A DNA stretch of 45,559 bases from Chitinivibrionales bacterium (GTDB lineage Bacteria; Fibrobacterota; Chitinivibrionia; Chitinivibrionales; WJKA01). Under the pieces are notes generated by a model that saw only the letters and a program-made list of their open reading frames with translations, had not been told where the DNA came from and ran no database searches. Both the position numbers and the translations under genes were made by a program. Below are positions 2,028 to 25,765 of the stretch, piece by piece. The stretch spans positions 1-45,559 of the forward strand of contig WJLZ01000224.1 of the NCBI GenBank assembly GCA_014728215.1, given 5' to 3'. The first letter of the stretch is position 1, and each line of letters starts with the position of its first letter.

Positions 2028-2154
2028 TACTTTTCAGCTCCAACAATACAATTTTTAATTATGTTTCCTTCGAAGGGCTCCCGGTGTTTTATTTTACTTT
2101 ATATCGCAAAAGTCGGTACTTCTAAAAAGAATATCTATATTGTATAATCTGGTT

Positions 2155-3249
2155 ATGGAAAATTCAAAGGATTCAAAAACATTCAAATATTATCTCTACC
2201 GTTTTTTAAGCGAGAAGCTGCAGCATGCTTTATCACGATGGCTATTGCGAAAGCAGATTACAGCAGTGGGCCTTCATTTTCCAATCACTCCATCTGAAGC
2301 CCGGAAGATATGTTTTATCCTTCCTAAAACGCCTCTTGAATCATTATTTCATCTCGATTCCGTGCTGGCACTTCTTTCCCGTTTCCCCAAAGTCGAGACG
2401 ACTCTGGTCTGTGAGCAGAAAGTAAGCCCCTTTTTCAACAAGCTCCCCGGCATCGGAACGGTCCTCGAATATGAAGAAAATGAGCATTATCTTGGCTCTC
2501 GCGAGCTAGACAATTTGAGTAGTCTTCTTCGCAAAGAAGGCTTTACCATTTGCTTTTTGCTTGAGAAGAACGCCGACCTTCCATTGCTGATCCTTGCAGG
2601 GAGTACCGGAGCCCCTTTGCGTGCAGGTTTCTGGTCTACTAATGCATATCCATTTATTAATATCCGGGTTCGCCCCTCCCCCAACGATATATACCTGTCC
2701 GAACAAAATATGGTTCTGGCCAGTCTGTTCGGTGCCAGCTCCACTGGTGGCAATCGATGGGTTGTGGCGAAAAAGGCGCTTGAAGAAGTTAACTATCTTT
2801 TCCAGGAAACCGGCATCAAATTTTCTTCACGCCATATCGGTATCGACGCTGCAGCGCTGTTTGTAGAATTTGGAGAAAAATGGACAGAGTCTCTCCTGGA
2901 TACACTAGTCAAAGAGCGGCATATTCCCTGTTATATTTATTTGCCTAACGATCAAAATGACAATAACTTACGATCATTGGCCCAAAAACTGGGCGTTCCT
3001 GTAATCAGCAATCTCAACGTTCCTCAGACAGCCGCCTTAATCCAACAGTCAAAAGCCATAATCAGCGGAAAAAGCAGTTTTTTCCAGCTGGCAATTCTGT
3101 TGCGTAAGACAGCGTTCGGTATATTTAATGAAAATGAACTGGCCCAGTATTGCAAATCCTCTTCCTATTCAAAAGGAATAGCATTTTCACGGAAAAGTGA
3201 AGATAAGGCTTTAAAAGAATTGCTTTCACTGCTTGAAACAGTGTGCTAA
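2155..3249 (+). CDS. GT9 (heptosyltransferase)-like protein, probably degenerate
   Basis: The 364-residue protein has the two Rossmann-like halves of ADP-heptose:LPS heptosyltransferases. The first half begins ICFILPKTPLESLFHLDSV and the second runs from about residue 230. The family's acceptor/donor segment near the C-terminus, usually xxDTGxxHLAxxL, reads ISGKSSFFQLAILL. The conserved Asp and His are missing, so catalytic activity is doubtful. This may be a diverged or inactive GT9. There is no signal peptide; the protein is expected at the cytoplasmic face. The frame can also start at TTG 2140, but neither start has a good ribosome binding site; a TATAAT box at 2143-2148 sits between them. 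It is a single gene; the promoter for the next unit starts just after it. Assignment is by fold pattern only. Confidence 0.6.
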   Translation: MENSKDSKTFKYYLYRFLSEKLQHALSRWLLRKQITAVGLHFPITPSEARKICFILPKTPLESLFHLDSVLALLSRFPKVETTLVCEQKVSPFFNKLPGIGTVLEYEENEHYLGSRELDNLSSLLRKEGFTICFLLEKNADLPLLILAGSTGAPLRAGFWSTNAYPFINIRVRPSPNDIYLSEQNMVLASLFGASSTGGNRWVVAKKALEEVNYLFQETGIKFSSRHIGIDAAALFVEFGEKWTESLLDTLVKERHIPCYIYLPNDQNDNNLRSLAQKLGVPVISNLNVPQTAALIQQSKAIISGKSSFFQLAILLRKTAFGIFNENELAQYCKSSSYSKGIAFSRKSEDKALKELLSLLETVC

Positions 3250-3280: not shown

Positions 3281-3309
3281 TTGACCGATATCGGGGTTGA
3301 ATATATAAT
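3281..3309 (+). promoter_or_regulatory. Sigma-70-type promoter for the shape-gene pair
   Basis: TTGACC at 3281-3286 is followed by a 17-base spacer and a perfect TATAAT at 3304-3309. Expected transcription start is about 3316. That is at or 1-2 bases before the GTG at 3318, and 53 bases before the ATG at 3369, so the start codon of the next gene matters (see that entry). Confidence 0.65.
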
Positions 3310-3317
3310 AAGTTATT

Positions 3318-4598
3318 GTGAATCCTATGATATCCAACTCGCTGAAAAATAAGATAGGTATCCATTCTATGTGGCAATCCTTGGAACGCAGCGTCTCATA
3401 TATTGGCAAAAAGTTCCAGTTCCGGCTTGAAACCTGGAAAAGGAAACGGGAAATTGCCAGGGCCTATCATTCACCATCCCTGTTCAAGCATGTAAAAAAG
3501 CATGCTGTAACCACGGGTATTGTTGCAGGTGTGGTTGCTGGAGGCTTTTTACTTTACACCTTTTCTCCAGCAATAATTAAAACGACGAAAAATCTGCTGG
3601 AAACCCGCCAAAGGACATTTCGGGATTTCTCCAGAGCAGAAGCATCGCCGATTGAGCAGGAAAAGGCTGAAGAAAATGCCGCAAATCCCAAACCGGGGAA
3701 ATCGGAACCTGTAAAAAAGCATATTCCTCCGGCACTAAAAACCGATTTTGCGATAATTGCAAATAAAAGTACAAAAAGTTTCTATTTATTAAAACAGCAA
3801 TCACCTGCCACCTGGAATATTGTGGAGAAATATTTCATGGCTGTGGGCGAACGGGATGGAAAAAAAGAGCGTGCCGGCGACAAGAAAACGCCCGAAGGGG
3901 CTTATTTTATTACCGGCAGAAAGGAAAACAGCGAACTACCGGAAATTTATGGCCCCCTTGCCTTTGTATTGAATTACCCGAATGATGAAGATCGCAAATT
4001 CGGCCGTAATGGAGAAGGCATATGGATCCATGGAACACGCCCCGATTCAGTTCCTCTTCAAACACGGGGATGCCTCGAGCTTTATAATAAAGATCTCAGG
4101 GAATTGTCGTCCTATTTAAAGCTTGGAATGGGCACCCCGGTGATTATCATTAACGACCCTCAGCTCGAGAATCCCATTTCCGTACTCGCCCGAAAGGTTG
4201 CCCAAAAGCAGAATCGTTTCATGGCAAAACACAAAAAATATCAGGACACCTTTAAGCAAGTGCTCAATTCGTGGGAAAAAGCCTGGGAGTCCCGGGATAT
4301 CGAACAATACGCTCATTTTTATGACACCTCCACATTTTTCGGCCAGGGGTTACATTGGAATGCCTGGAAAGAGAAAAAAGAGCGGACATTTACCATTTAT
4401 TCGTTTATTGAAGTTGGCATCGAAGATATTACCCTTGCAGACTTTTCCGATTCAACCGCGGTTGTGAAATTTATTCAAACCTATACCTCCGATGCTATAA
4501 ATGTACAGAATGGCAAAAAGCTTTCTTTCATAAACAGGCAAGGCGCCTGGAAAATTAAAATGGAAACGACCTTCCCTCAGGAGGAGCATATATCATGA
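3318..4598 (+). CDS. Membrane-anchored YkuD (L,D-transpeptidase/carboxypeptidase) with NTF2-like domain, Csd6/Pgp2-like
   Basis: Acts on peptidoglycan stem peptides in the periplasm. Numbering is from GTG 3318 (426 aa): a basic cytoplasmic N-terminus, one membrane segment at about 63-84, a charged linker, a YkuD domain at about 143-278, and an NTF2-like domain at about 305-420. The YkuD catalytic signature is clear: IHGT with His238 and TRGC with Cys252. The order YkuD then NTF2-like is that of Helicobacter pylori Csd6 and Campylobacter jejuni Pgp2, L,D-carboxypeptidases that trim tetrapeptides and are needed for helical shape. Whether this one is a carboxypeptidase or a transpeptidase cannot be decided from sequence. 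Its stop overlaps the next gene's start by 4 bases (ATGA). The start is uncertain: GTG 3318 (near-leaderless given the promoter), ATG 3327 or ATG 3369 are all in frame. Confidence 0.88.
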   Translation: MNPMISNSLKNKIGIHSMWQSLERSVSYIGKKFQFRLETWKRKREIARAYHSPSLFKHVKKHAVTTGIVAGVVAGGFLLYTFSPAIIKTTKNLLETRQRTFRDFSRAEASPIEQEKAEENAANPKPGKSEPVKKHIPPALKTDFAIIANKSTKSFYLLKQQSPATWNIVEKYFMAVGERDGKKERAGDKKTPEGAYFITGRKENSELPEIYGPLAFVLNYPNDEDRKFGRNGEGIWIHGTRPDSVPLQTRGCLELYNKDLRELSSYLKLGMGTPVIIINDPQLENPISVLARKVAQKQNRFMAKHKKYQDTFKQVLNSWEKAWESRDIEQYAHFYDTSTFFGQGLHWNAWKEKKERTFTIYSFIEVGIEDITLADFSDSTAVVKFIQTYTSDAINVQNGKKLSFINRQGAWKIKMETTFPQEEHIS

Positions 4599-7213
4599 TG
4601 TTCTCTTTTTCAAAGAAGCAGGAAATTAAAAACCCACAACAGTTGGCAGAAACAATTGAGGCGCACCTCAATGAAATTCAGGATTTACTCAAAAACGCAC
4701 GTGCCGAAAAAGTCGACCTCCATTCTCTTCTCGCATCGGTTGAAAAAGAACGTTCCGATGTTATGGCCGAGAAGCAGACAGCTGAGAATGTTCAGGGAAA
4801 TATCGGCAAGATGGAAGTACGTTTTACGGAGCTTTCAAAGAAACTCGACCGTGCTGATGAAAAATATTCGAATATCGAAGCATTGCTTTCCAAAACCGGA
4901 TCGCTTGAAGAACGGATAGAAAAAATCGAGTCATCGGTAAATAAAATTACCACCAACCAAAACATGGTAGACGAAATGGCTTCTTCAATCGATTCCCTGG
5001 TGTCGAAAATCGAAAAAAGAGGTGATTCAAGTCTGCTTGACCGTACCCTCAAGGCCGTACAAGAATTCGACGAGCGCAAGGAAAAAGCATTCGGCTATGT
5101 AGAAGAAATGGAAAAACGATCCCAGAAGATTGAAACAAGCTTTACAAAAACCCAGGCGATGCTCTATGAAACGCAGTCACAAACAGAAACGTTAGAGGGA
5201 AAGCTTTCCGATTTCAGTGAAGAAATCAACAAGGTCAGATTACTGAAGGAAAAGATCGACAATCTGAACAATCTTTCCGAGTATATCAAAAACAAAGTAA
5301 AGTCTCTTGAAGCCCAGCGGATTGTGGTTGACAAAGCGACCGAAGAAGCGGGGCGGTTGAATTCGCTTACCTGGAAAATCGATTCTGAAATGAAATATCT
5401 CCAGGAAAAAGTTTCCAAACTGGATAAGGCCGAAAAAAACATCGATCGTATCAATACGCTGCTCGAAGAGAGTCATGCATCTATTACGGAAATACGTCAG
5501 TTCCAGAAACTTATGGATCAGACTACCGAAAAAATCAAGGAGATCAAGGTACTCGATACACAGCTCGAAGAAAAGCTTGATGTTTTCAGATCCAACAGCG
5601 CCCATGTTGAGGAAGTAAACGAACGGGCACACGAGGTTATGACCATTGCCCGTAATACCGAAGCCATTCTCAATACACTGACAAAACACAAACAGATGCT
5701 CGAAAACAGTAACAACCAGATTGTTGAATACGAAGGCAATCTTAATAAGATCAGATCTAAAATCGATGAGCTTAATCAGGAATGGAGCGCTGTCGATACC
5801 ATTACCCAGCGCATTGCAGGATGCCAGACCCAACTGGATGAAATCGATTCCCGTTTTGAATCCATTCGGAAAAACGAGCGGAATATCGAAGCATTTGAAT
5901 CCAAACTCGAGGATATGCGCACCCTGATCGACGACACATGCAGAAAAGAAGAAACATTACATGAGTATCGCACTGAAGCCGAAGAACTGACTAAACGTAT
6001 GGACACCTTCTTCTCGAGCGCCGAACTTCTGGAAGAAAAAATCAAGGAACTTGGTGAGCACGAGCAGGAAATCATGGCCATGTCGCAGCAAATCGATGAA
6101 TTAAAAGCACTTTCGAAAACAACCAGTGATTCTATCAAGGATACTGAAGGAAAGGCCCAAATCATCAAAGATGTCGACGAAAAAATACGGAATCTCGGAA
6201 CGATGGTTTCGGATATTGACGATCGCATTAATACGCAACTCGAACGAAAAGGAATGATTGACGCCACCGAAAAACGGCTCGATCAATTAAACTACCTTCT
6301 CGGTGATATTAACATGAAAATACAGAATCTTACCAAAGAACAGAAGGCGGTCGAAGATGTTCTTCAACAGCTCTCCGCGATTTCGGCTCAGTCGCTTGAA
6401 GCAAAGGAAATGATGAAACGTCTTTCTGAAGAAAAACAGGCCTTGACACAGGAAGAGAGCCGTATCCGGGAAATGCAGAGCCAGCTCGAGACCATGGTAA
6501 GCCAGGGTAACGACTCACTCAATGTCTTTACCGGCAAAATATCCGATTTCAAAACCGCCGCCGCAGAAAACACTAACGATTTGCAGCAGTTACATGATGA
6601 AATCGACAACCACATGAAAGAGATCGACGGCCACAATCAGTATATAAAAACGGCGTCGGAAAAACTTTCTGAAGTACAAGGTGGTATCGAAACGCTGAAT
6701 GCGGAGATGGACCAGATTAACCGCCGCTCTTCCAAGATTGAAACCATCGACAAACGCCTCGAAAGTCTCAACACGGTAATCAGCGATATGGAAATCAGAA
6801 TCGAGACGATCGATAAAGACCGGGAAATGGTTAATGAAACCCAGAAAAAGATCGATCATCTTGGGGAACTTGCCCGGAAAGCGCAGCATGAAATCGAAGA
6901 AATCGAATCTCAGGCTGAAGAAATCCAGAATACCCGTCAACAGGTATTTAAACTTGAAGAAATCATGGATTCAGTTGACAAGCGCGTCTCACGACTTACA
7001 AAAGAAAAAGCTTCGATAAAGGAAAGTGAAAACCGCATTGCAACACTTAACCTTCTTATGGAAGATATCAAAGCGCAGATAACCAATGTAACAACTGAAG
7101 AGGAGCGGATTCGCGAAGCTATCGAGAAAACCTCGGAACTGCGATTTCTTCTGGGAGAAGTGGAATCAAAGCTTTCAATTTTTCGACAGGAAAAAGAGCG
7201 GCTTAATATCTGA
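4595..7213 (+). CDS. Giant coiled-coil protein with about 25 repeats of 31 residues
   Basis: The 872 residues are almost entirely predicted helix, rich in Glu, Lys, Ile and Leu, with no signal peptide, membrane segment or nucleotide-binding motif. It is therefore likely a cytoplasmic filament or scaffold and not an SMC ATPase. By eye the chain falls into ungapped 31-residue units with hydrophobic positions 4, 7, 11, 14, 18, 21, 25 and 28. Units start at residues 60, 91 and 122, then every 31 residues from 187 to 621 (15 units), then every 31 from 657 to 843 (7 units). Slips of 3 and 5 residues separate the three blocks. Typical cores are EKRLDQLNYLL (559), DKRLESLNTVI (719) and ENRIATLNLLM (812). 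The ATG lies 10 bases after a perfect AGGAGG (4579-4584) and overlaps the stop of the YkuD gene, so the two are translationally coupled. Automatic annotation may call it 'chromosome segregation protein'; no evidence for that is visible. Confidence 0.92.
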   Translation: MMFSFSKKQEIKNPQQLAETIEAHLNEIQDLLKNARAEKVDLHSLLASVEKERSDVMAEKQTAENVQGNIGKMEVRFTELSKKLDRADEKYSNIEALLSKTGSLEERIEKIESSVNKITTNQNMVDEMASSIDSLVSKIEKRGDSSLLDRTLKAVQEFDERKEKAFGYVEEMEKRSQKIETSFTKTQAMLYETQSQTETLEGKLSDFSEEINKVRLLKEKIDNLNNLSEYIKNKVKSLEAQRIVVDKATEEAGRLNSLTWKIDSEMKYLQEKVSKLDKAEKNIDRINTLLEESHASITEIRQFQKLMDQTTEKIKEIKVLDTQLEEKLDVFRSNSAHVEEVNERAHEVMTIARNTEAILNTLTKHKQMLENSNNQIVEYEGNLNKIRSKIDELNQEWSAVDTITQRIAGCQTQLDEIDSRFESIRKNERNIEAFESKLEDMRTLIDDTCRKEETLHEYRTEAEELTKRMDTFFSSAELLEEKIKELGEHEQEIMAMSQQIDELKALSKTTSDSIKDTEGKAQIIKDVDEKIRNLGTMVSDIDDRINTQLERKGMIDATEKRLDQLNYLLGDINMKIQNLTKEQKAVEDVLQQLSAISAQSLEAKEMMKRLSEEKQALTQEESRIREMQSQLETMVSQGNDSLNVFTGKISDFKTAAAENTNDLQQLHDEIDNHMKEIDGHNQYIKTASEKLSEVQGGIETLNAEMDQINRRSSKIETIDKRLESLNTVISDMEIRIETIDKDREMVNETQKKIDHLGELARKAQHEIEEIESQAEEIQNTRQQVFKLEEIMDSVDKRVSRLTKEKASIKESENRIATLNLLMEDIKAQITNVTTEEERIREAIEKTSELRFLLGEVESKLSIFRQEKERLNI

Positions 7214-7424: not shown

Positions 7425-9605
7425 ATGCTGTTAATGGAATGGTCGGTCGAACGATCCGCCGAAAACCTGATTACCCAAATCAAGGAAGTCAACCCCCGGG
7501 TTGATACCGAGCTGATTAGCAAGGCGTTTTGTTTCTCCTGGGAAGCACACAAGAACCAGGTCCGCAAATCCGGAGAGCCCTTTCTTTCCCATCCCGTTGC
7601 CGTTGCCCTCATTTTAGCCGAATTACAGCTCGATTCGATTACAATCGCCGCAGGCCTTTTACATGATGTTCTTGAAGATACTCCGGTCGACAAGGATCAA
7701 TTAACCGAAGAATTCGGCGAGGAAATTGCCCCGCTGGTTGATGGCGTTACCAAGATCCAGAAATTTGAGATGAAATCCCGGGCTCAACGCCAGGCCGAAA
7801 CCTATCGGAAAATGCTTTTGTCCATGGCCAAAGATATCCGGGTAATTATCATCAAATTTGCCGACCGGCTCCATAATTTACGCACACTGAAATATTTAAA
7901 ACCGTCAAAGATTCGAGATATCGCGGCCGAAACAATCGATATCTACGCCCCCCTGGCTCACCGTCTCGGAATGGCAAAAGTCAAATGGGAACTTGAAGAT
8001 CTTGCATTCAAACATCTACACCCCGATGAATACAAAAAAATTGTCACAAAAATTGTAAATTCACGCTATGACCGTGAAAAACTTATCGACAGCTTTACTA
8101 TTCCTCTCCGGCATAAGCTCGAACAGGAAGGAATTGAAGCGACTGTAATCGGCCGTCCCAAGCATTTTTACAGTATCTACCGCAAAATGCACCTCTATAA
8201 CCGGCCCTTCGAAGAAATATACGATCTTCTTGCAATCCGGGTTATTACCAACAGTATCAGGGATTGCTATCATGTTCTGGGCATTGTCCATTCAATATGG
8301 AAACCCATCCAGGACCGTTTCAAAGACTATATCGGGACGCCTAAACTGAATGGATATCAATCGCTGCACACGACAATATTTGGTGAGCACGGCAATATTA
8401 CTGAAATACAGATACGGACCTGGGAAATGAACCATGTTGCTGAGGATGGTATTGCAGCGCACTGGCGATATAAAAATGGTGAAGAAGACATTAATTCAAA
8501 GGATGAACATGCGCTGGAATGGCTGAAGAATCTTATCGAATGGCAAAAAGATCTCACCGATTCGGCAGAATTTTTTGAATTTTTCAAAGTTGACCTGTTT
8601 CATGCCGAAATATTCATATTTACCCCCAGAGGAGACCTGATTTCTCTTCCCAAGGGCGCTACGGTCCTGGATTTTGCCTTTGCCGTTCACACCGATCTGG
8701 GACTTCATTGCATCGGCGCAAAGGTTGACGGCAAAATTGAGCCGATAAACACAGTTTTAAAAAGCGGTTGTACTGTCGAAATTCTTCATTCATCATCCAA
8801 GTGGCCCTCTATCGACTGGCTGCAGCACATCCAAACCGCCAAAGCCCGTTCCTCGATCCGGCGGTATTTTAAAAATATGGAAAAGCACGAAAGTATCGAG
8901 CTGGGCAAAAAGATCATCCGTACAAATTACAATAAACTCCATTTTTCTTCCCAATTTACTGATCATGTACCGGGAATGTTGAAATCTTTGGGAATCAACA
9001 ACCTCGATCAGGTCTACGAACTCGTTGGAAAAGGCGAACTTCCCATCAGCCGAATTGTACACTACTTTCAAACGCGAAAATCCAGGCAGTCGATGCCGTC
9101 ACGAATGGTATCGGGATTTGTTCGTACTTTTGTTAATCCCAATTTTCCGATACCTGTCGACGACACCGAAAATATAATGATTCGTTTTGCCAAATGCTGC
9201 AATCCGATCCCCGGCGATTCCATCATTGGATTCGTGACTAAAGGACGAGGTATTGCCATACACCGTTCGGATTGTCCTCATGTTAATAGCTTCCGTAATG
9301 AGGAAGAACGAACTATTGCCGTCAGCTGGGACAATCAGGAAAATGGCCGGTATGTTGTTATAATTGAAATTGTCGCCAATGATTCTCCCGGCCTTCTTTA
9401 TGAAATATCGAAGGTATTTACTAATTTCGGCGCTAATGTGATCGAAGGATCGATTAGAACCGAAAACCAACGGGTACATAATATTTTCAAGATTGAAATC
9501 CGTAACAAGAATCAACTGAAACAGATTTTCAGGCGAATACAAAAAATTAAAGGAATTGAGAAGATATCCCGAACAAAAGATTATATTTATTCCTCAAAAA
9601 AATAG
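7425..9605 (+). CDS. rel: Bifunctional (p)ppGpp synthetase/hydrolase, Rel/SpoT family
   Basis: Makes and degrades the alarmone (p)ppGpp in the stringent response. The 726 residues carry the full long-RSH order. An HD hydrolase domain contains LLHDVLEDT (the HDxxED metal site). The synthetase domain contains RPKHFYSIYRKM and RFKDYIGTPKLNGYQSLHT. A TGS domain (FTPRGDLISLPKGATVLDFA), a helical and zinc-finger-like segment with the CC pair in AKCCNPIPGD, and a C-terminal ACT domain follow. Intact HDxxED and the RFKD version of the synthetase motif (not the ExDD of monofunctional RelA) indicate a bifunctional enzyme. ATG 7425 has AGGA about 11 bases upstream; ATG 7434 is a less likely alternative. 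The 210 bases before it hold no convincing gene. Confidence 0.97.
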   Translation: MLLMEWSVERSAENLITQIKEVNPRVDTELISKAFCFSWEAHKNQVRKSGEPFLSHPVAVALILAELQLDSITIAAGLLHDVLEDTPVDKDQLTEEFGEEIAPLVDGVTKIQKFEMKSRAQRQAETYRKMLLSMAKDIRVIIIKFADRLHNLRTLKYLKPSKIRDIAAETIDIYAPLAHRLGMAKVKWELEDLAFKHLHPDEYKKIVTKIVNSRYDREKLIDSFTIPLRHKLEQEGIEATVIGRPKHFYSIYRKMHLYNRPFEEIYDLLAIRVITNSIRDCYHVLGIVHSIWKPIQDRFKDYIGTPKLNGYQSLHTTIFGEHGNITEIQIRTWEMNHVAEDGIAAHWRYKNGEEDINSKDEHALEWLKNLIEWQKDLTDSAEFFEFFKVDLFHAEIFIFTPRGDLISLPKGATVLDFAFAVHTDLGLHCIGAKVDGKIEPINTVLKSGCTVEILHSSSKWPSIDWLQHIQTAKARSSIRRYFKNMEKHESIELGKKIIRTNYNKLHFSSQFTDHVPGMLKSLGINNLDQVYELVGKGELPISRIVHYFQTRKSRQSMPSRMVSGFVRTFVNPNFPIPVDDTENIMIRFAKCCNPIPGDSIIGFVTKGRGIAIHRSDCPHVNSFRNEEERTIAVSWDNQENGRYVVIIEIVANDSPGLLYEISKVFTNFGANVIEGSIRTENQRVHNIFKIEIRNKNQLKQIFRRIQKIKGIEKISRTKDYIYSSKK

Positions 9606-12558: not shown

Positions 12559-15330
12559 ATGGCATCCCAGGACACAAAATCTACAAAGCGATTCTCGCTT
12601 AAAGGTAATGTCGAGATCGAAAATCTCCTTCCCCGAATTGAGCGGACATTTTTCAAGGTCGGCTCGACATTAGGCAAATACCGCATTATCGAAGAAATCG
12701 ACCGTGGCGGAATGGCAGTAGTCTATAAAGCACTGCAACTCGATCTCGACCGGGTCGTCGCCCTCAAAGTCCTTCCGGCGAACATAACAATCAACCGTCG
12801 CTTTGTGGACCGTTTTCTTTCGGAAGCTCATGCCGTCGCTCAGCTCAATCATCCCAATATAGTCAGTATTCATGAAGTCGCCATGGAAGACAATGTTTAC
12901 TTTCTGGCAATGGATTATATCCCGGGCAAAAATCTGTACTATTATCTTAATCTTGAGAAGCCCAAACTTGTTGATGTACTTGAAATAGTATCCACTCTTG
13001 CCGATGCATTGGGTTATGCCCATCGCCAGAAGATTGTCCACCGTGATTTGAAACTGAATAATATCATTATGCGGGATGATGCATCGCCGGTACTTATCGA
13101 TTTCGGTCTTGCAAAAGCGCTGGAGAATGAAGAAGGGTCTATTACCCAGACCGGCGAAATCATGGGCTCCCCGGCCTACATGGCGCCCGAACGGCTGCTG
13201 GGTGCCGCAGCCGATCACCGGAGCGATATCTGTTCGCTGGGAATTATGCTCTACGAAATGTTAACTTTCAAGAATCCCTACCTTGATCCCCGAAGCATAC
13301 ATCAGACAACAATGAATGTACTGGAATCGGATCCTATTCCTCCCCGCAAACTTGTGCAATGGCTGCCTGTTGAAGTTGAAGCAATAACTCTTAAAGCCAT
13401 GCACAAAGATCAGGATAAGCGATACCAGACCATGGAGGAAATGAGTGACGATGTACGGCGTTATCAGAAAGGCGAACCTGTTCTTGCACGCCCGCCTTCG
13501 TTTATCTCACGGGGCAAACATTTTTTTAAAAAATACTGGGCCTGGGCTGTCATCACCACGTTAATAATCCTTTTCTCAACTATTATCGGTATTTCGCTCT
13601 ATACTCAGAACCGGAAAGAAAGGCCTCATTGGCAGTTGGTCTATTCAGAATCATTCAGCACCGACAAAACCGATGAAAACTGGCAATCATTTACAATGGG
13701 GCAAAGCCGGGAAAAACCGATCTGGGTAATCCGTGACGGCGCTCTTCACGCACCCGGCAATACATCCGGATTTATCAGGCTCGAAAAACCCCTGACCAGA
13801 GATATTAAAATCGAGTTTGATATTGCAGCAACCGAAAAGTCATTGTTTGATGTCGGTTTTTTTCTTAACGGCGACTCGCCGGACAGTGGATATACCTTTC
13901 ACATAAATCGTTGGGGTACGCCTGAATGCGGAATCACCTTCCCTTCCAGTAAGTTCCTTTTCAGGGATTTCCTTCTCCCGGACCATCCTGAACGTTGCTC
14001 ATATCATGTCACCGTTGAAAAACAAAATGGACAAATTTCTTTTTCAATTAACGACAAACATATTGCAACGATATGGGACCTTTTTCCGCCACTCGGAAAA
14101 TCTCACCAGAAAATCGGGTTCTTTTCCTCCGGTGGTACAGTGCTTTTTGATAATTTAAAAGTTTATCGTCTTGCTATTCCTCGGCTCTCCAGCCCGACAC
14201 ATGTTGCCGACCGTTTCTGGGAAAGAGGAGATCTTGTAACTGCTCTCGAAGAATACTCGATGCTTCTGGAAGACTTTCCCGATTTTGAACAGGAACCCGA
14301 TGTACTTCTTAAAATCAGTGACTGTCTGATCCGGATGCAACGGTATACCCGGGCGCGGGAATTTCTTAACAAAACACTGAACTCAAAATACAGTAATCAA
14401 ACCCATCTTGCACAAGCCCATTATCTTTTTGGAACTCTTTATTACCATCAGAACAATTTTGATGAAGCGATGATTCGTTTCAGAGAGTTACATAAACGAT
14501 ATCCATCTCATCCGGGTAATCAGCATGCCATTTTACTGATGGCACAGCGGAATGCCTCTCTTATCGATAATAACCGGATTAATGAAGCGCTTGCCAATGT
14601 CGACAGTCTTGCCTGGGCTTACAATGATCAGACAAGCTTAACAGGGAATCTTTATCTCTATGCGGCAAATCATTATCTTCGTGCTAAAATGCCCGGAAAA
14701 GCGTTATCGGTTTTGACTCGGGCCGCGGACCGTTTCAGTGATAACCCCATTCTTCTCTCCAGTATCCGGTTGAAAAGAGGAATGGCATATTTAATGAAAG
14801 GGGAGAGAAAAAAAGCCAATGAAGCATTTAACCGAAGTATTACTCCACCAATACAAACCCATGACGGCTGGATGGGATGGATGATGCTTGCACAAATATA
14901 CGAATATCGCTTTATGTATAAAGATGCGTTAAAGATTTACCGGAAAATCTATCAGGAATGCCCTCGCGGAACAGACCTTCCCTGGCTGGCGAAACTGAAA
15001 ACGGGTGAACTCGCACCCTATACCAGGCAACACAAGGACTTCGATTTGCTGTTCAGGTCGGTTATTGATGCCCCAAGCCCCTACCCCCTTCCCCGGGCAA
15101 CTGCACAGTTTTATCTGGGAGAACTTTCCGAAAATGAATTTCATGAGATTCTTGAAAAGCTGGGTTATGATAGTCGTGAGATATTCAGATTCACCGCTCA
15201 AAAAGAATTAATAGAAGGTAATTATCGGGCTTCACGCCGCAACTTCAAAAGATTTATGCGCCACCTTTCCCGATCTTCATGGGAATACCATTTTACAGAA
15301 CGGATTTTGCAAAATCCGATACTTCGATAG
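12559..15330 (+). CDS. Transmembrane Ser/Thr protein kinase with beta-sandwich and TPR domains
   Basis: The protein has 923 residues. A Hanks-type kinase domain spans about 41-305: Gly loop DRGGMAVVYK, Lys70 in VALK, Glu89, catalytic Asp163 in HRDLKLNN (Leu where Pro is usual), DFG at 181-183, and the activation-loop end GSPAYMAPE. All catalytic residues are present. One membrane segment (about 326-348) leads to an extracytoplasmic region. That region starts with a lectin-like beta-sandwich (about 358-535; similar in pattern to LamG or DUF1080 domains) and ends in TPR-type helical repeats (about 545-800). It may sense envelope glycans or proteins and phosphorylate cytoplasmic targets; the ligand is unknown. 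ATG 12559 has only a poor ribosome binding site. The 75 bases before it are AT-rich and may hold its promoter. Confidence 0.93.
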   Translation: MASQDTKSTKRFSLKGNVEIENLLPRIERTFFKVGSTLGKYRIIEEIDRGGMAVVYKALQLDLDRVVALKVLPANITINRRFVDRFLSEAHAVAQLNHPNIVSIHEVAMEDNVYFLAMDYIPGKNLYYYLNLEKPKLVDVLEIVSTLADALGYAHRQKIVHRDLKLNNIIMRDDASPVLIDFGLAKALENEEGSITQTGEIMGSPAYMAPERLLGAAADHRSDICSLGIMLYEMLTFKNPYLDPRSIHQTTMNVLESDPIPPRKLVQWLPVEVEAITLKAMHKDQDKRYQTMEEMSDDVRRYQKGEPVLARPPSFISRGKHFFKKYWAWAVITTLIILFSTIIGISLYTQNRKERPHWQLVYSESFSTDKTDENWQSFTMGQSREKPIWVIRDGALHAPGNTSGFIRLEKPLTRDIKIEFDIAATEKSLFDVGFFLNGDSPDSGYTFHINRWGTPECGITFPSSKFLFRDFLLPDHPERCSYHVTVEKQNGQISFSINDKHIATIWDLFPPLGKSHQKIGFFSSGGTVLFDNLKVYRLAIPRLSSPTHVADRFWERGDLVTALEEYSMLLEDFPDFEQEPDVLLKISDCLIRMQRYTRAREFLNKTLNSKYSNQTHLAQAHYLFGTLYYHQNNFDEAMIRFRELHKRYPSHPGNQHAILLMAQRNASLIDNNRINEALANVDSLAWAYNDQTSLTGNLYLYAANHYLRAKMPGKALSVLTRAADRFSDNPILLSSIRLKRGMAYLMKGERKKANEAFNRSITPPIQTHDGWMGWMMLAQIYEYRFMYKDALKIYRKIYQECPRGTDLPWLAKLKTGELAPYTRQHKDFDLLFRSVIDAPSPYPLPRATAQFYLGELSENEFHEILEKLGYDSREIFRFTAQKELIEGNYRASRRNFKRFMRHLSRSSWEYHFTERILQNPILR

Positions 15331-19738: not shown

Positions 19739-22453
19739 TCAGGAAAAATCGATATTAAACCCACCTTCACCATCATCACCGATATGAATACTTTCGTAAG
19801 CGTCTTCACCCGCACCGGTTCGTGCCAGAAGTTGACGGGATATTGCCGGAAGCAGCGTCTGGTCGATAACCGCATCGGCATTGCGAGCCCCGGCCTCAAT
19901 TGCTGTACAGTTAGCGGCAATGTTATCGATAAGGGAAGGTGAACAACTGAATCTGATACGGTGATGTTCATGGATTCGCTGGGCGACCTTATCGAGCTTG
20001 AGAGCAACGATACCCCGCATCCTCTCTTTGTCGAGAGGACGGAAAGGTACGATTTTGCATCGCCCAAGCAGAGCCGGCTGAAAATGAGCGCTCAGGGTCG
20101 GGCGGATTGCAGCGATGATCTCTTCATGGGAAGCGGTCGCAGATTCTTCTGCAGGCGCCTGTTCCCCCTCTTCACCGGCAGCTTCGGCACCGGCAGCTTC
20201 GGCATTTTCTTCAGCCGACGGCTTGTCGGGGATGCACATGTCAACAATTTGGTCCGAGGCCAGGTTCGAGGTCATAATAATGATCGTATTGCGGAAATTA
20301 ATTTCACGACCTTCGCCGTCACGCATAAACCCTTTATCAAAAACCTGATAAAAAAGATTCATCACTTCAAGATGAGCCTTTTCAACTTCATCTAAAATAA
20401 CAACCGAGTATGGTTTCTGACGTACGGCTTCGGTAAGAATACCCCCTTCACCATATCCTACATATCCGGGAGGCGATCCCTTGAGTTGAGAAACCGTATG
20501 TTTCTCCTGATATTCCGACATGTTAATGACAGTCATGAACTTTTCACCACCAAACATTGTATTGGCCAGTGCAATTGCTGTTTCTGTTTTCCCTACCCCG
20601 GATGGCCCTACAAAGAGAAATACCCCCATCGGAGCATCGGGATTTGCCATTCCTGTTTTTGATGCCCGGATTGTATTGGCAAGTTCATACAATGCATCAT
20701 CCTGACCTATAACCCGTTGTCCAAGCCGTTCTTCAAGCTCTAAAAGCGTCCTGGCTTCGTCCTTGAGCATTGACCCTACAGGAATTCCTGTCCAGTCAGA
20801 CACAACCTGAGAGCAGACTTCCGGTGATACGCAGGGGAACACCATCGGGACCTCGCCCTGAACTTCTTCAAGCTTTTTTGTCTCCTCCTCAAGTTCTGCA
20901 GAAAGCTTTTTGGATTCTTCCGATAAAGGATCTTTTTCCCGCGAGACACTACAGGCATCCTGAAGCTCGATTATTTTTTGGGCAAGAACTTTCTCCTTTT
21001 CCCATTTCTCGGTCAATTGTTTGATTTCTTCTTCTTCAGCGGCAATGGTTTCTTCACATTCCCTGATTGGGTCATCTGAAGTGATAATTCCGGCATCACG
21101 GTCCTTTTTTAAGGTTTTCAATTCGAGCTGTGCATTAATAAGTGCCCGTTCGGCTGAATCGAGCACGCCCGGTTTCGTGCTCTGACTCATACGAACCCGT
21201 GCACAGGCCGTATCGAGCACATCGACCGCCTTGTCTGGAAGTTGTCTTCCCGAGATATATCGATGCGACATGGATACCGCCGATTTGATGCCGTCATAGG
21301 TGATCCGCACACCATGATGTTTTTCATAGCTGGTACCGATACCTCTGAGCATAATACTGCATTTTTCCTCATCGGGTTCTTCTATTTTAATGAGCTGAAA
21401 TCTCCGGGTGAGAGCCGGATCTTTTTCAAAGTATTTCCGGTATTCCGACCAGGTGGTTGCAGCCATGGTCCGCAGTTCACCCCGGGCCAGTGCCGGTTTC
21501 AATAAATTGGCGGCGTCACCCTGTCCAGCAGCTCCTCCGGCGCCGATAAGTGTATGAGCTTCGTCGATAAATAAAATTGTGGGGGTCGCACTGTTTTTAA
21601 TTGCATCGATAACGTTTTTCAAACGCTTTTCGAACTCCCCTTTGACACTTGCACCTGCCTGGAGGAGCCCCAGATCCAATCCCCACAAATCAACATTCTT
21701 CAGATGCTCCGGAACGTCCCCATTGGCGATACGAAGCGCAATGCCTTCGATAATAGCGGTTTTCCCCACTCCGGCTTCACCAACCAGAATAGGATTATTT
21801 TTCCTTCTGCGGTTGAGTATATCAAGCGACTGCCTGATTTCCTCATCCCGTCCGAGAATAGGATCGATTTTGCCGTCCCGCGCTTCTTTAGTGAAATTTG
21901 TACAATACTGATTGAGGATATCCTCACCTGCACCAGCTGCACCGGGCGCACCTTTCGGTGCGGCAACACCGGCTCCCTGCTGTTCGGCTGACGGTCCTGC
22001 TATTTTGAAAAATTCCTGCTTTAATGTTTCTACATTTACTTTTGAAAGAATGGTTCCATAAGCCGACATGGCCGTCATACCCTTTTCGATCGCAGCAATA
22101 AACAATGCTCCTGAAGTTACCGCCGAAAGGCCGAAATCAAGCGAACTGAGCGTCCAACCATGCTCAAGCACTTCAAGAAAGGGAGGCGAAAACGAAGGTT
22201 TTCCGGTACTTCCCGACTGAAAACCTTCAAGCTCCTGATTAACCGCTTTCTTAAGCTGCGAAGAATCGATTTCGAAATGACGGAGAATATGAGGAATATC
22301 GCCCTGCCCCATATCAATGAACTGCATCAGCATATGTTCCCACCGAAGCTCGTAATGACCTCGATTGACACAAAACCCAACCGCACCCTCCAGAGCATGC
22401 TGGCAATGGTCATTCAACCGTTCCAACAGCTTGCGTATGTCTTTAACTGCCAT
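19739..22453 (-). CDS. tssH: Type VI secretion ATPase TssH (ClpV)
   Basis: AAA+ disaggregase that unfolds contracted T6SS sheath for reuse in the cytoplasm. It has 904 residues: a Clp N domain (1-150), a Gly/Ala-rich linker, AAA1 with Walker [10 protein letters not shown] and [14 protein letters not shown], a coiled-coil M domain (about 400-510), AAA2 with GPSGVGKTE and [10 protein letters not shown], and a ClpB-type C-domain. The ATG at 22453 is chosen because AGGAG lies 8 bases upstream; a longer frame to 22561 only translates repeat DNA. Odd feature: between [12 protein letters not shown] and [16 protein letters not shown] there is an Ala/Glu-rich low-complexity insert (about 738-777), some 25 residues longer than usual. 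It is last in the tssE-F-G-H order, after a 203-base gap. Confidence 0.95.
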
Positions 22454-22475
22454 GAAACCACTCCTTTGACAATAT

Positions 22476-22570
22476 CGAAATTCGTAACTCGAAATTCGAA
22501 ATAATAGGATAATGAATTGTAAATTCGAAATCCGATCCCGCTGAAGCGGGATGAAATTCAAAATGGAATT
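22476..22570. repeat. Intergenic repeat element with CGAAATTCG words and a GC-rich hairpin
   Basis: The words CGAAATTCG (22476), CGAAATTCGAA (22490), AAATTCGAAATCCG (22521) and GAAATTC (22553) flank a perfect hairpin. The hairpin is ATCCCGC-TGAA-GCGGGAT at 22535-22552 (7-bp stem, 4-base loop). The pattern resembles dispersed REP-like spacer DNA. It sits between tssG and tssH and gives a false 36-codon N-terminal extension to tssH. Confidence 0.6.
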
Positions 22571-22656
22571 AATATAACATTATCTGAATCTGGTGCTGCA
22601 GCACCTCTTCTTTTATTACCATTGATCTCTGACGGCTGAGTGCCGACTACTGTTCT

Positions 22657-23607
22657 CTATCTGCCGATTGTCACGGTCTGAATATCCGACTTTCCCGAAG
22701 ATTTTCCCAGGGCAGATGTTCTTCCCAGGGGTGCATTATTGGCACCGAGCCGGCTCGGAACCAGATCCGAACTTTGAAGTTTGACCTGGATATCGAAATC
22801 GAGCGGATCGGCGGTAAAATCTTCGATGAGCTTTTCCATGCGACGGATATTTTCGGTTCCCGACAGAAAGGCTTCGAATATATCTCTTGTCAGAGGCCCG
22901 ATGATGATCCGGAATTTACCTGCAATATCCCAGATCTTTGTTCCCAGAAGTGTATTTCTGCCAAGCTGCGCATCGGTTCCGATTTGTTTCGGATCACTTA
23001 CATCAGCCCACCGGGGCACCCAGCTTTCAACTTCGACAGGAATGCCACCAAACACGTCGGAAAGCATGGTCTGCAATCCCGCCGCACTTCGCCGGGGCCC
23101 GGCTAAAACACCACAATAGGCAAGGAGACCCATGCGTTCTTCCGCAACAGAACCGAGGCTGTCGATCCCGGTCATGGCCGCTATTCTCCGGACAAGCGGA
23201 TCGTTATGCTTGCGAAATGTCGATTGGAGAAGAAAATATTTTTTCCAGGCCCGGTAGAATAGCGTGTATAGCCGATGATTGAATATGGTAATAAAATCTT
23301 TAAGCGGTTGAGCGTTTTCGGGGTCGGTGTTGATATATTCTGTAAAGTAAACAGGGAGTGGCGAAGAAACTCCCGCCAGCTCCATAAAGGAAAGAATAAA
23401 GGTAATAACGCCTTTGTCTTCGGTAATACCGGCAATATCACCGGGCGGAAAGTCCAGGACACATTCGGGTTCCATCCGGATACGGCCCGAATCAACCGGA
23501 TCTTCGGCAAGCCCCTCACTCCGAAACTTCTCTTCGAGCAGCGAGAGGGCCTGAAAGAAATTGAACTTATTGCCCTCTTTCAGTAAGCGTCCGGTTAAAT
23601 TACCCAT
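22657..23607 (-). CDS. tssG: Type VI secretion baseplate protein TssG
   Basis: Forms the T6SS baseplate wedge with TssF, TssE and TssK in the cytoplasm. It has 316 residues, close to the usual 330. Family marks: FNFFQALSLLE at the N-terminus, RIRMEPECVLDFPPGDI, FMELAGVSSPLPVYFTEYI, RLYTLFYRAWKKY, and the TLLGTKIWDIAGKFRI segment. The ATG overlaps the 3' end of tssF by 13 bases, with AAGGGA upstream. The C-terminal tail (after about residue 285) is Ser/Gly/Asn-rich and may be flexible. Confidence 0.94.
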   Translation of the reverse strand: MGNLTGRLLKEGNKFNFFQALSLLEEKFRSEGLAEDPVDSGRIRMEPECVLDFPPGDIAGITEDKGVITFILSFMELAGVSSPLPVYFTEYINTDPENAQPLKDFITIFNHRLYTLFYRAWKKYFLLQSTFRKHNDPLVRRIAAMTGIDSLGSVAEERMGLLAYCGVLAGPRRSAAGLQTMLSDVFGGIPVEVESWVPRWADVSDPKQIGTDAQLGRNTLLGTKIWDIAGKFRIIIGPLTRDIFEAFLSGTENIRRMEKLIEDFTADPLDFDIQVKLQSSDLVPSRLGANNAPLGRTSALGKSSGKSDIQTVTIGR

Positions 23608-25343
23608 TGTTTTCCCTTAAGAGAATTCCAGCGAAGCTGCTTGCTTGATGGTTTCAATATCAGAATCAGCTCAATGAACGAATTTATCGAAACATAATGG
23701 GCAAGAAACTCCTTGAGTATCTGTCCAAAAAGATGTATGTCCCCAATGTCAAGAAACTCACTTTCGAGAAGTGACACCGAAAATTCGATACCCCGAACAA
23801 CAGCGCCATTAATTGTCATTTCGGTCGACTGGGCCTGAACATCGGAAATACCCTTGATTCGCCGGGCACGACCTTCGGAATTGGACCAGTCGTAAAGTTT
23901 CAGAAAGGATTTCAGGGTTTCGGCTGAAGCAAGTGTCGAATAGGTCGCTCCCAGATGAGAAAGAAATGTCCAGAGATAGTGCCCTTCTTTGGGCGGCATA
24001 AACGGCATCGTGGGTCGGGTTATATTGGTCACCATTACGTAATCGGGAAATCCGGGCCCCGGCTTATTGATATCCCCTTCCCGAAGTTCGTCACGGGGAA
24101 GGGTTCCGTTAGTAAGCCATGCTTCAATCGACAGGGTCTCTTCATGAAGCTCATCGTCCACCAGGCGTTCACCGCCCAGAGCAACAAAACACTGCCGTTG
24201 TGCATCAGGACCATAACGATACTGAACCGTATAGGTTTTTCCTGTTCTGTCGCCGATATGCTTGAATGAATGGAAAGGGTTGTAAACAATTCTTTCGCCC
24301 GTCGTCCTGTCGACGCCGGTAATCGAGACAACACTGTGGGTATGAAAGGAACCAGGATAGGAAGAATCTGCAACAACTCTGCATTCGGGCTCGTGACCGG
24401 ACCAGTAGACCGGTTCGGCATCTTTTTTGAATATATTTGCAATGGGTGAACAGAAAAGCCTGAAATTTTCTGCCCCGAAAGGTTTGTCCGGAACAAAATC
24501 ATCATTGAAAGTGAGAGAATAGGTAAAACTTGAAGGATTTTCTTCGGGTAGGGGAATTGCATCAAAACCGTTCAGATTCACAAAGAGAAATTTGTCGGGG
24601 AATATAAAGTATTCCCGCAGGAGAGCGTATCCCCAGAAATTTCTGCTTTCTCTCGGAAGTAATGATTCGGAAGGTGTCAGTCCTCCGGGAGTAACAGCTT
24701 TTTCGGGATCCAGAGTGGTAGTCTGTGTGCCGTTCTGCAAGGAAATCGAAGCTCTCAGCACCCGACGAGTCAAAAATTCATGGAGCATCAATGCGGTTGG
24801 AAGTTCGGCATAAAGAAAAAACTGTATCGACGAGACTCCGAGTGAATCCCATTGCACTCCGGGTTCCAGAATAAAATGAAAATCGAGGCTTGCCTTTCCC
24901 CGGGTATCGACTTTTCTCTCGATATTTTTCAAGGCATAGGGCCCGATAGTAACATCCTGGGTTGTGCTGAACCTGCAAATTGCCGACTCAGATCCTGCTG
25001 GAGGGGAAAGGATTTCGGCACCCCGCTCGATTATCCGTGTACTCTGCAGGAAGCCACGCCGGGGCTTGAATTCCACGACTGCCAGTGAAGGGACCTCTTC
25101 AAGTAACTGAGGCCATAAAAGCCCCATGAGCCCCTCGGTTAGTTCTGGAAATGAATCATCGATTTTCTCCCGTATCCGAGCGGCAAGAAAAGCAAAACCC
25201 TCAAATAAGCGCTCCACATAGGGATCCCTGTCCCCGACTGCATCGATATTTAAAAACCGTGCACGGTCCGGATGGGCCCGGGCAAACTCTTTTCCTGATT
25301 CATAAAGATAACGAAGCTCTTCTTCGTAATATTTCTCAATCAT
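23595..25343 (-). CDS. tssF: Type VI secretion baseplate protein TssF
   Basis: Baseplate wedge component, partner of TssG. It has 582 residues (family about 600). The N-terminus is the most diagnostic part: YYEEELRYLYESGKEFA, then RDPYVERLFEGFAFLAARI and FPELTEGLMGLLWPQLL. The C-terminus has the LYDWSN and FGQILKEFLAHYVSINSF segments. Its ATG is 2 bases after the tssE stop with GGAGAAGGA upstream, so translation is coupled. Confidence 0.95.
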   Translation of the reverse strand: MIEKYYEEELRYLYESGKEFARAHPDRARFLNIDAVGDRDPYVERLFEGFAFLAARIREKIDDSFPELTEGLMGLLWPQLLEEVPSLAVVEFKPRRGFLQSTRIIERGAEILSPPAGSESAICRFSTTQDVTIGPYALKNIERKVDTRGKASLDFHFILEPGVQWDSLGVSSIQFFLYAELPTALMLHEFLTRRVLRASISLQNGTQTTTLDPEKAVTPGGLTPSESLLPRESRNFWGYALLREYFIFPDKFLFVNLNGFDAIPLPEENPSSFTYSLTFNDDFVPDKPFGAENFRLFCSPIANIFKKDAEPVYWSGHEPECRVVADSSYPGSFHTHSVVSITGVDRTTGERIVYNPFHSFKHIGDRTGKTYTVQYRYGPDAQRQCFVALGGERLVDDELHEETLSIEAWLTNGTLPRDELREGDINKPGPGFPDYVMVTNITRPTMPFMPPKEGHYLWTFLSHLGATYSTLASAETLKSFLKLYDWSNSEGRARRIKGISDVQAQSTEMTINGAVVRGIEFSVSLLESEFLDIGDIHLFGQILKEFLAHYVSINSFIELILILKPSSKQLRWNSLKGKQWVI

Positions 25344-25345
25344 TA

Positions 25346-25765
25346 TTATTCAGTCCTTCTCCACGGCGAAATCTGCGAATTACCCATACTGGTAAAAGTG
25401 GTCTGAAATCTGACCACCCCACCTTCCTTTAACTCTCCCGAAAGAATGAATTCAATTTTAAATTCCTTGTCCTTTGGTTCGGTACGGATAACTTTTACTT
25501 TCTTTAACCGTGGCTCATACTTTTCAACAGTTTTACGGATTGCCTCCTGAAGCTCTTCAATACCATCCGGCATTTTCCGGTACATTTCGGAAATATCCGG
25601 CAGACCGTAATCCTCCAGATGCGGAATGCTCCCTTCACGGGTATTGAACATTCTGCTCAAATGGTCCATAATTGAAAGCACTCGTCGACTCTGCGGCGCA
25701 ACGCTGTCAACAGGGGTCTTATCGAGGAAATGGCCGGTTAGACTTTCAAAAAGAGCCTGATTCAT
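25346..25765 (-). CDS. tssE: Type VI secretion baseplate protein TssE (gp25-like)
   Basis: The protein has 139 residues, normal length. Phage T4 gp25-type lysozyme-fold protein at the baseplate/sheath junction. The family motif is clear: MFNTREGSIPHLEDYGLPD, followed by the conserved helix and the EPRLKKVKV strand. GGAG lies 5 bases before the ATG. It is the first gene of the minus-strand unit tssE-F-G-H; a tandem repeat lies 37-65 bases upstream. Confidence 0.94.
   Translation of the reverse strand: MNQALFESLTGHFLDKTPVDSVAPQSRRVLSIMDHLSRMFNTREGSIPHLEDYGLPDISEMYRKMPDGIEELQEAIRKTVEKYEPRLKKVKVIRTEPKDKEFKIEFILSGELKEGGVVRFQTTFTSMGNSQISPWRRTE

Follow-up and report, generated by a model that had tools for sequence, protein, structure and literature searches.

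The locus described here raises the question of why a gene for a putative cell wall-trimming enzyme should be tied to a gene for a long coiled-coil protein of the cytosol. Both genes are located in a stretch of 45,559 nucleotides (contig WJLZ01000224.1, hereafter the window) belonging to a 5.0 Mb genome of the phylum Fibrobacterota (G000); the first encodes an enzyme of the Csd6/Pgp2/Bd1075 type and the second a protein that we named CoCo. The initial annotation had regarded the two as a candidate cell-curvature module. Our analysis leads to a reading with a probability of about 0.55, according to which the enzyme and CoCo form one trans-envelope unit, a wall enzyme positioned by a rod, that gives the cell a curved or spiral shape. 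The enzyme would be anchored in the inner membrane. Its YkuD domain and its peptidoglycan-binding NTF2 domain would face the periplasm, and a short basic helix would extend into the cytosol. CoCo, a stiff rod of fixed length built of 31-residue repeats and probably lying along the membrane, would grip the enzyme by this helix and confine wall trimming to a single line or one side of the cell, giving rise to a vibrioid or spiral shape. The contact between the two proteins, the position of the rod, the catalytic activity and any influence on cell shape are inferred in this reading. A literature search covering Fibrobacterota, coiled coils and Csd6 brought up no earlier description of the pair.

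The enzyme gene (3369..4598; all features of the pair are on the plus strand) is part of an open reading frame (ORF) of 426 aa that is open from a GTG at 3318 (3318-4598). The ATG at 3369 (MWQSLERS...) is the more likely start, because MW opens many homologues at that column. The ORF of CoCo begins with an ATG (4595-7213), and the two genes overlap by four bases, ATGA, at 4595..4598, as initially annotated; the same overlap was found at 22 of the 36 enzyme-CoCo junctions of relatives, with short gaps in the remaining ones. Among 101 genomes, 37 contained both genes and 63 neither, the enzyme alone was found in a single genome (G016), and CoCo alone in none. The order enzyme-CoCo is kept wherever both genes can be read on one contig, and adjacency and order are maintained across the families having the pair, usually within the cluster upstream ORF, enzyme, CoCo, relA/spoT, DUF4388 and prs. 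Of the named relatives, the closest one to carry the locus is a 'Chitinivibrionales bacterium' bin (L071, a 3,624-base contig matching a contig of G001). Other named genomes with the pair are represented by a Raymondbacteria contig (L090) and by L091 (27% GC, no close kin in the set), in which the enzyme gene, a coil gene of weak similarity and relA/spoT are consecutive. No CoCo was detected on plasmids in a plasmid search.

The distribution was mapped on a RelA/SpoT tree, on which about five joint losses of the pair, and none of the enzyme alone, can be placed: in G010, in G030/G035, in the group of G019, G026, G027, G032 and G039, in the Fibrobacteraceae and in G052. This count, from which G038 (68% complete) was left out, is approximate because the support of the five-genome group is 92/91. 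In G010 the upstream ORF adjoins relA and both genes of the pair are gone; its congener G004 has the pair. The conservation of the pair in relatives, on which the initial annotation had staked its proposal, therefore held. As relA/spoT is the gene directly after CoCo at almost all loci, L091 included, it could be argued that CoCo works with RelA/SpoT, e.g., as a scaffold or sensor of the stringent response; we consider this highly improbable, since every tested genome in which the pair was lost still has relA/spoT, and CoCo follows the enzyme, not relA.

A further explanation would be a coupling of expression only, in which a common regulon and stoichiometry link the two genes without contact of their products, and CoCo is an independent cytoskeletal protein. 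A promoter ahead of the pair had been annotated and was recovered as a sigma-70-like sequence, TTGACC-17-TATAAT (3281..3309; 11/12 consensus, consensus match only), with identical hexamers and spacing in the relatives L031 and L035. The ATGA overlap together with such a common promoter would be enough for the linkage. However, the genes stay linked in lineages that lack the overlap, they were lost jointly and the enzyme never singly, and the cytosolic tail of the enzyme tracks the coil, as described below, so that this explanation appears improbable.

The predicted cytosolic tail (3369..3518) is basic (net charge +9 over residues 18-69), and in the AlphaFold2 (AF2) model it forms a helix over residues 8-50 that ends in a conserved RE-I-x-R-A-Y motif, whose A49 and Y50 are nearly invariant (at least 90% conserved). 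It is followed by a transmembrane (TM) helix at residues 68-86 (3519..3575), with a maximum 19-residue Kyte-Doolittle (KD) value of 1.82 and located within the AF2 helix 53-103; the annotated anchoring from the inside, with a basic N-terminal tail, agrees with these data. In G016, assembled as one metagenome-assembled genome (MAG) of 780 contigs, the enzyme is directly followed by relA, CoCo is absent, and the tail is reduced to a 17-residue stub lacking the motif, with no remnant in other frames. The coil, the tail and the motif are all present in G020 (L059), the congeneric sister of G016 (L060). Among 60 proteins with a TM or signal segment detected by a crude TM rule, under which 20 further proteins gave no segment, the median tail length was ~50 aa in paired versus ~9 aa in unpaired proteins, and the motif pattern was present in 16 of 20 paired versus 2 of 40 unpaired ones. 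L092 was counted as unpaired only through a contig end, its genome (G012) having CoCo on another contig. YkuD-NTF2 proteins occurring elsewhere without CoCo mostly possess signal peptides or short tails. From sequence comparison, a physical pairing of the enzyme and CoCo thus appears likely.

The enzyme itself was assigned by several searches. Both Pfam domains score above their cut-offs, the YkuD catalytic domain (PF03734, 55.8 bits) at residues 145-277 (3750..4148) and the NTF2-like Cds6_C domain (PF24125, 59.7 bits) at residues 313-416 (4254..4565), and the invariant YkuD residues H238 (4029-4031), G239, G251 and C252 (4071-4073) are present. The residue two positions after the Cys is a Glu in the enzyme and is never an Arg among 30 aligned homologues; an Arg at this position is usual in L,D-transpeptidases (PMC8938487). 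A phmmer search of the PDB placed Bd1075 (7o21, E=4e-34), Csd6 (4xzz, 1e-21) and Pgp2 (6xj6/6xj7, 2e-14) at the top, followed by the YkuD protein 8ikr (3.5e-4). In Foldseek, the AF2 model of the enzyme (mean predicted local distance difference test, pLDDT, 86.6) retrieved the same three proteins first, with Bd1075 as the best PDB match (7o21, E=2e-24). By contrast, the enzyme scored 24.9 bits with the DpaA/YafK model NF040599, whose cut-off is 365. With its YkuD domain preceding Cds6_C, and with Cys and His but no Arg at Cys+2, the enzyme is by sequence of the Csd6/Pgp2/Bd1075 type, so the annotated Csd6/Pgp2-like architecture stands, and its predicted activity is that of an L,D-carboxypeptidase.

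Bd1075 of Bdellovibrio bacteriovorus is the closest counterpart in both sequence and fold. Besides the YkuD and NTF2 domains and the conserved Cys and His, its pocket residue Tyr274 aligns with Y389 of the enzyme, and the Cys+2 residue is not Arg in either protein (Val in Bd1075, Glu in the enzyme), whereas W303 of Bd1075 is not conserved in the enzyme, and where the enzyme has the long cytosolic tail, Bd1075 has a short, simple loop at its N-terminus. We know of no coiled-coil partner of Bd1075. Helicobacter pylori Csd6 and Campylobacter jejuni Pgp2, both L,D-carboxypeptidases required for helical cell shape, share the two-domain architecture; to our knowledge, their cytoskeletal partner genes are not adjacent. 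Where the enzyme has the tail and the TM helix, Csd6 and Pgp2 carry an N-terminal dimerisation domain (PMC8938487). All three known proteins trim tetrapeptides to tripeptides and shape cells, and Bd1075 bends Bdellovibrio, its NTF2 domain directing it to the convex face, a one-sided placement whose basis is unknown (PMC8938487).

Two observations on this domain architecture outside the pair should also be recorded. Members of another Fibrobacterota family, f14 (L155/G167 and L156/G166), have two Cds6_C domains at one locus and no CoCo; nowhere else in the phylum does PF24125 score as high. In many Beta- and Gammaproteobacteria (L095-L098, L103-L105, L107, L109, L131 and others) the YkuD-NTF2 gene occurs in tandem, immediately after another gene that matches this profile with a lower score.

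CoCo (4595..7213, 872 aa) has no signal, no TM segment (maximum 19-residue KD value 0.58) and a single Pro, and should therefore be cytosolic. The initial annotation had described a giant cytoplasmic coiled coil; the protein is probably cytosolic and is long, but with ~127 nm if fully extended it is not giant. Its core, about residues 183-871 (5141..7207), aligns over ~690 columns with zero internal gaps in 25 homologues at 21-50% identity, a pattern that a rod locked in register and fixed in length would show. Even in 682-aa versions, which lack the ~190 residues behind it, the very start of the protein (M-x-F-S..KKK) can be recognised; its role might, as a guess, be membrane binding. Among solved structures, only weak generic coil matches were obtained.

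Profile autocorrelation of CoCo gave top lags of 31, 62, 93 and 124, with lag 31 ranking first in every Fibrobacterota CoCo tested singly. The first array comprises 12 repeats exactly in phase (residues 218-589; 5246..6361), and a second array in shifted phase (residues 714-870; 6734..7204) ends in the conserved block EKTSELRFLLGEVESKL. The hydrophobic periodicity is 3.44-3.47 residues per turn in CoCo and 3.445 in the coil of L091, compared to 3.50 in the SMC protein of the same genome used as a control; 31 residues in 9 turns correspond to four heptads plus a stammer. By arithmetic, a helix of 3.60-3.65 residues per turn would give a superhelical pitch of ~9-12 nm and not ~13-19 nm. Coiled coils that depart from the heptad mostly exceed 3.5 residues per turn, and a stammer puts strain on the helix (PMC4786415). 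CoCo is thus structurally odd, as ~690 residues hold ~3.45 without an indel despite this trend. The comparison with crescentin made initially stands only in functional terms: crescentin and its kin are cytosolic coiled coils acting on wall growth and curvature, as proposed for CoCo, but they are heptad-based, whereas CoCo has a periodicity of 3.45 (31/9), and sequence homology was not shown.

A common 31-residue, ~3.45 periodicity was found in SpiroCoCo (NCBIfam NF047514/NF047515). CoCo reached 158.8 bits with the C-terminal SpiroCoCo model (cut-off 125) as a whole-protein sum over repeats, single stretches of CoCo remaining below the cut-off in a whole-genome search, and 73.8 bits with the N-terminal model, below its cut-off of 75. 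We considered whether these scores are a generic coiled-coil artefact and rejected this, as identical residues are distributed along the rod, the core lacks indels, and deletion of 3 residues per 31 reverses the ranking (SpiroCoCo_C from 159 to 71 bits, SMC_prok_B from 72 to 124 bits). Fragments of the first array align to SpiroCoCo_C at offsets 122, 246, 401 and 432, which are equal modulo 31, so that the model shares the 31-residue period; the second array yields fragments out of that phase. CoCo was not filed as a SpiroCoCo member because the HTH-like C-terminal end of SpiroCoCo (profile 268-313) has no match in it. An independent SpiroCoCo piece (L157:11-610, 217 bits) has a period of 3.455 and top lag 31, and its short contig carries no csd6-type gene beside it; judged by its neighbours, this contig (G038:C115, from a termite-gut MAG) is likely a spirochaete contaminant. 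The 31-residue repeat of CoCo and SpiroCoCo may reflect either homology or convergence. Two C-termini, in L158:8049-9425 and L159:2138-2620, match the HTH-like end (AREQIMELHEAGLTANEIGRKLSKSVGEVQLILSMARRS) without a long coil, and the L158 protein directly precedes an 845-aa ORF.

The shape of cultured relatives was compared with the occurrence of the pair. Chitinispirillum alkaliphilum is a spirillum, Chitinivibrio a vibrio, and Fibrobacter comprises non-motile rods (PMC4814513). The genomes G022 and G013, which we infer to be Chitinispirillum alkaliphilum and Chitinivibrio, both contain the pair, and the Fibrobacter-like f8 genomes contain neither gene. The comparison of co-occurrence and cell shape suggested by the initial annotation thus agrees for these three groups, while the termite Fibromonas may disagree.

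Several points weigh against a rod-positioned enzyme that curves the cell. Three groups in culture and a single phylogenetic contrast underlie the shape correlation. The flagellated f8/g34 genomes, which are probably termite Fibromonas, have fliF and no pair, and cells of this termite group were reportedly described by Hongoh in 2006 as undulating or vibroid; curvature in the phylum may therefore not always require the pair. The pair is likewise absent from several flagellated Chitinivibrionia whose cell shape is unknown. YkuD-NTF2 proteins without CoCo occur in many Proteobacteria, including Thiobacillus and Methylophilus, the latter being rods, and so this architecture is not diagnostic of curvature by itself. 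Additionally, the sole coiled-coil protein of Bdellovibrio is dispensable for curvature (PMC8938487), and the all-helix AF2 model of CoCo has a predicted template modelling (pTM) score of 0.22, at which tertiary and oligomeric structure is not reliable.

The two proteins could also form a physical unit with a task other than curvature. CoCo would then organise a pole, the base of the flagellum or a zone of growth, where the enzyme would carry out general trimming or a DpaA-like detachment. The wide occurrence of YkuD-NTF2 proteins without CoCo would fit this, as would the presence of fliF in 36 of the 37 genomes with the pair and the absence of both fliF and the pair in G010; DpaA also matches the YkuD fold (8ikr). 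On the other hand, the enzyme is far closer to Bd1075 and Csd6 than to DpaA by the scores given above, the NTF2 domain is kept, and several flagellated genomes lack the pair, which makes this alternative somewhat unlikely. Flagella as the sole correlate of the pair were rejected, as they fit most genomes but not all.

Considering the few cultured groups, the f8/g34 genomes and the rods with YkuD-NTF2, the physical pairing is held to be likely, and a role in curvature has about even chances. Of the overall interpretation given initially, the anchored Csd6-type enzyme coupled to a cytosolic coil was retained, and curvature only as a plausible role; the 31-residue period, the conservation and joint loss across the phylum and the missing tail of G016 had not been noted in it. 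If the rod-positioned enzyme is real, the pair would be genetically compact, with enzyme, anchor and internal ruler in one operon of cultured spirilla and vibrios. More tentatively, it may represent an undescribed trans-envelope curvature module, in which an overtwisted rod of fixed length recruits a Csd6-type peptidase by a dedicated tail for one-sided trimming, and this type of coil, whose repeat SpiroCoCo shares, would recur in the cytoskeleton of bacteria with curved or helical cells.

The remaining features of the window provide context. Upstream of the pair, the conserved neighbour at 2140..3249 (plus strand, from synteny) resembles a glycosyltransferase by eye, with no Pfam match. The conserved downstream neighbour, RelA/SpoT (7425..9605, plus strand; assigned by Pfam and synteny), lies outside the proposed module. 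Further along the window, minus-strand genes at 19739-25765 encode an AAA/ClpB-like ATPase and TssF and are part of a type VI secretion-like cluster, and a Ser/Thr protein kinase with TPR repeats is encoded at 12559-15330.

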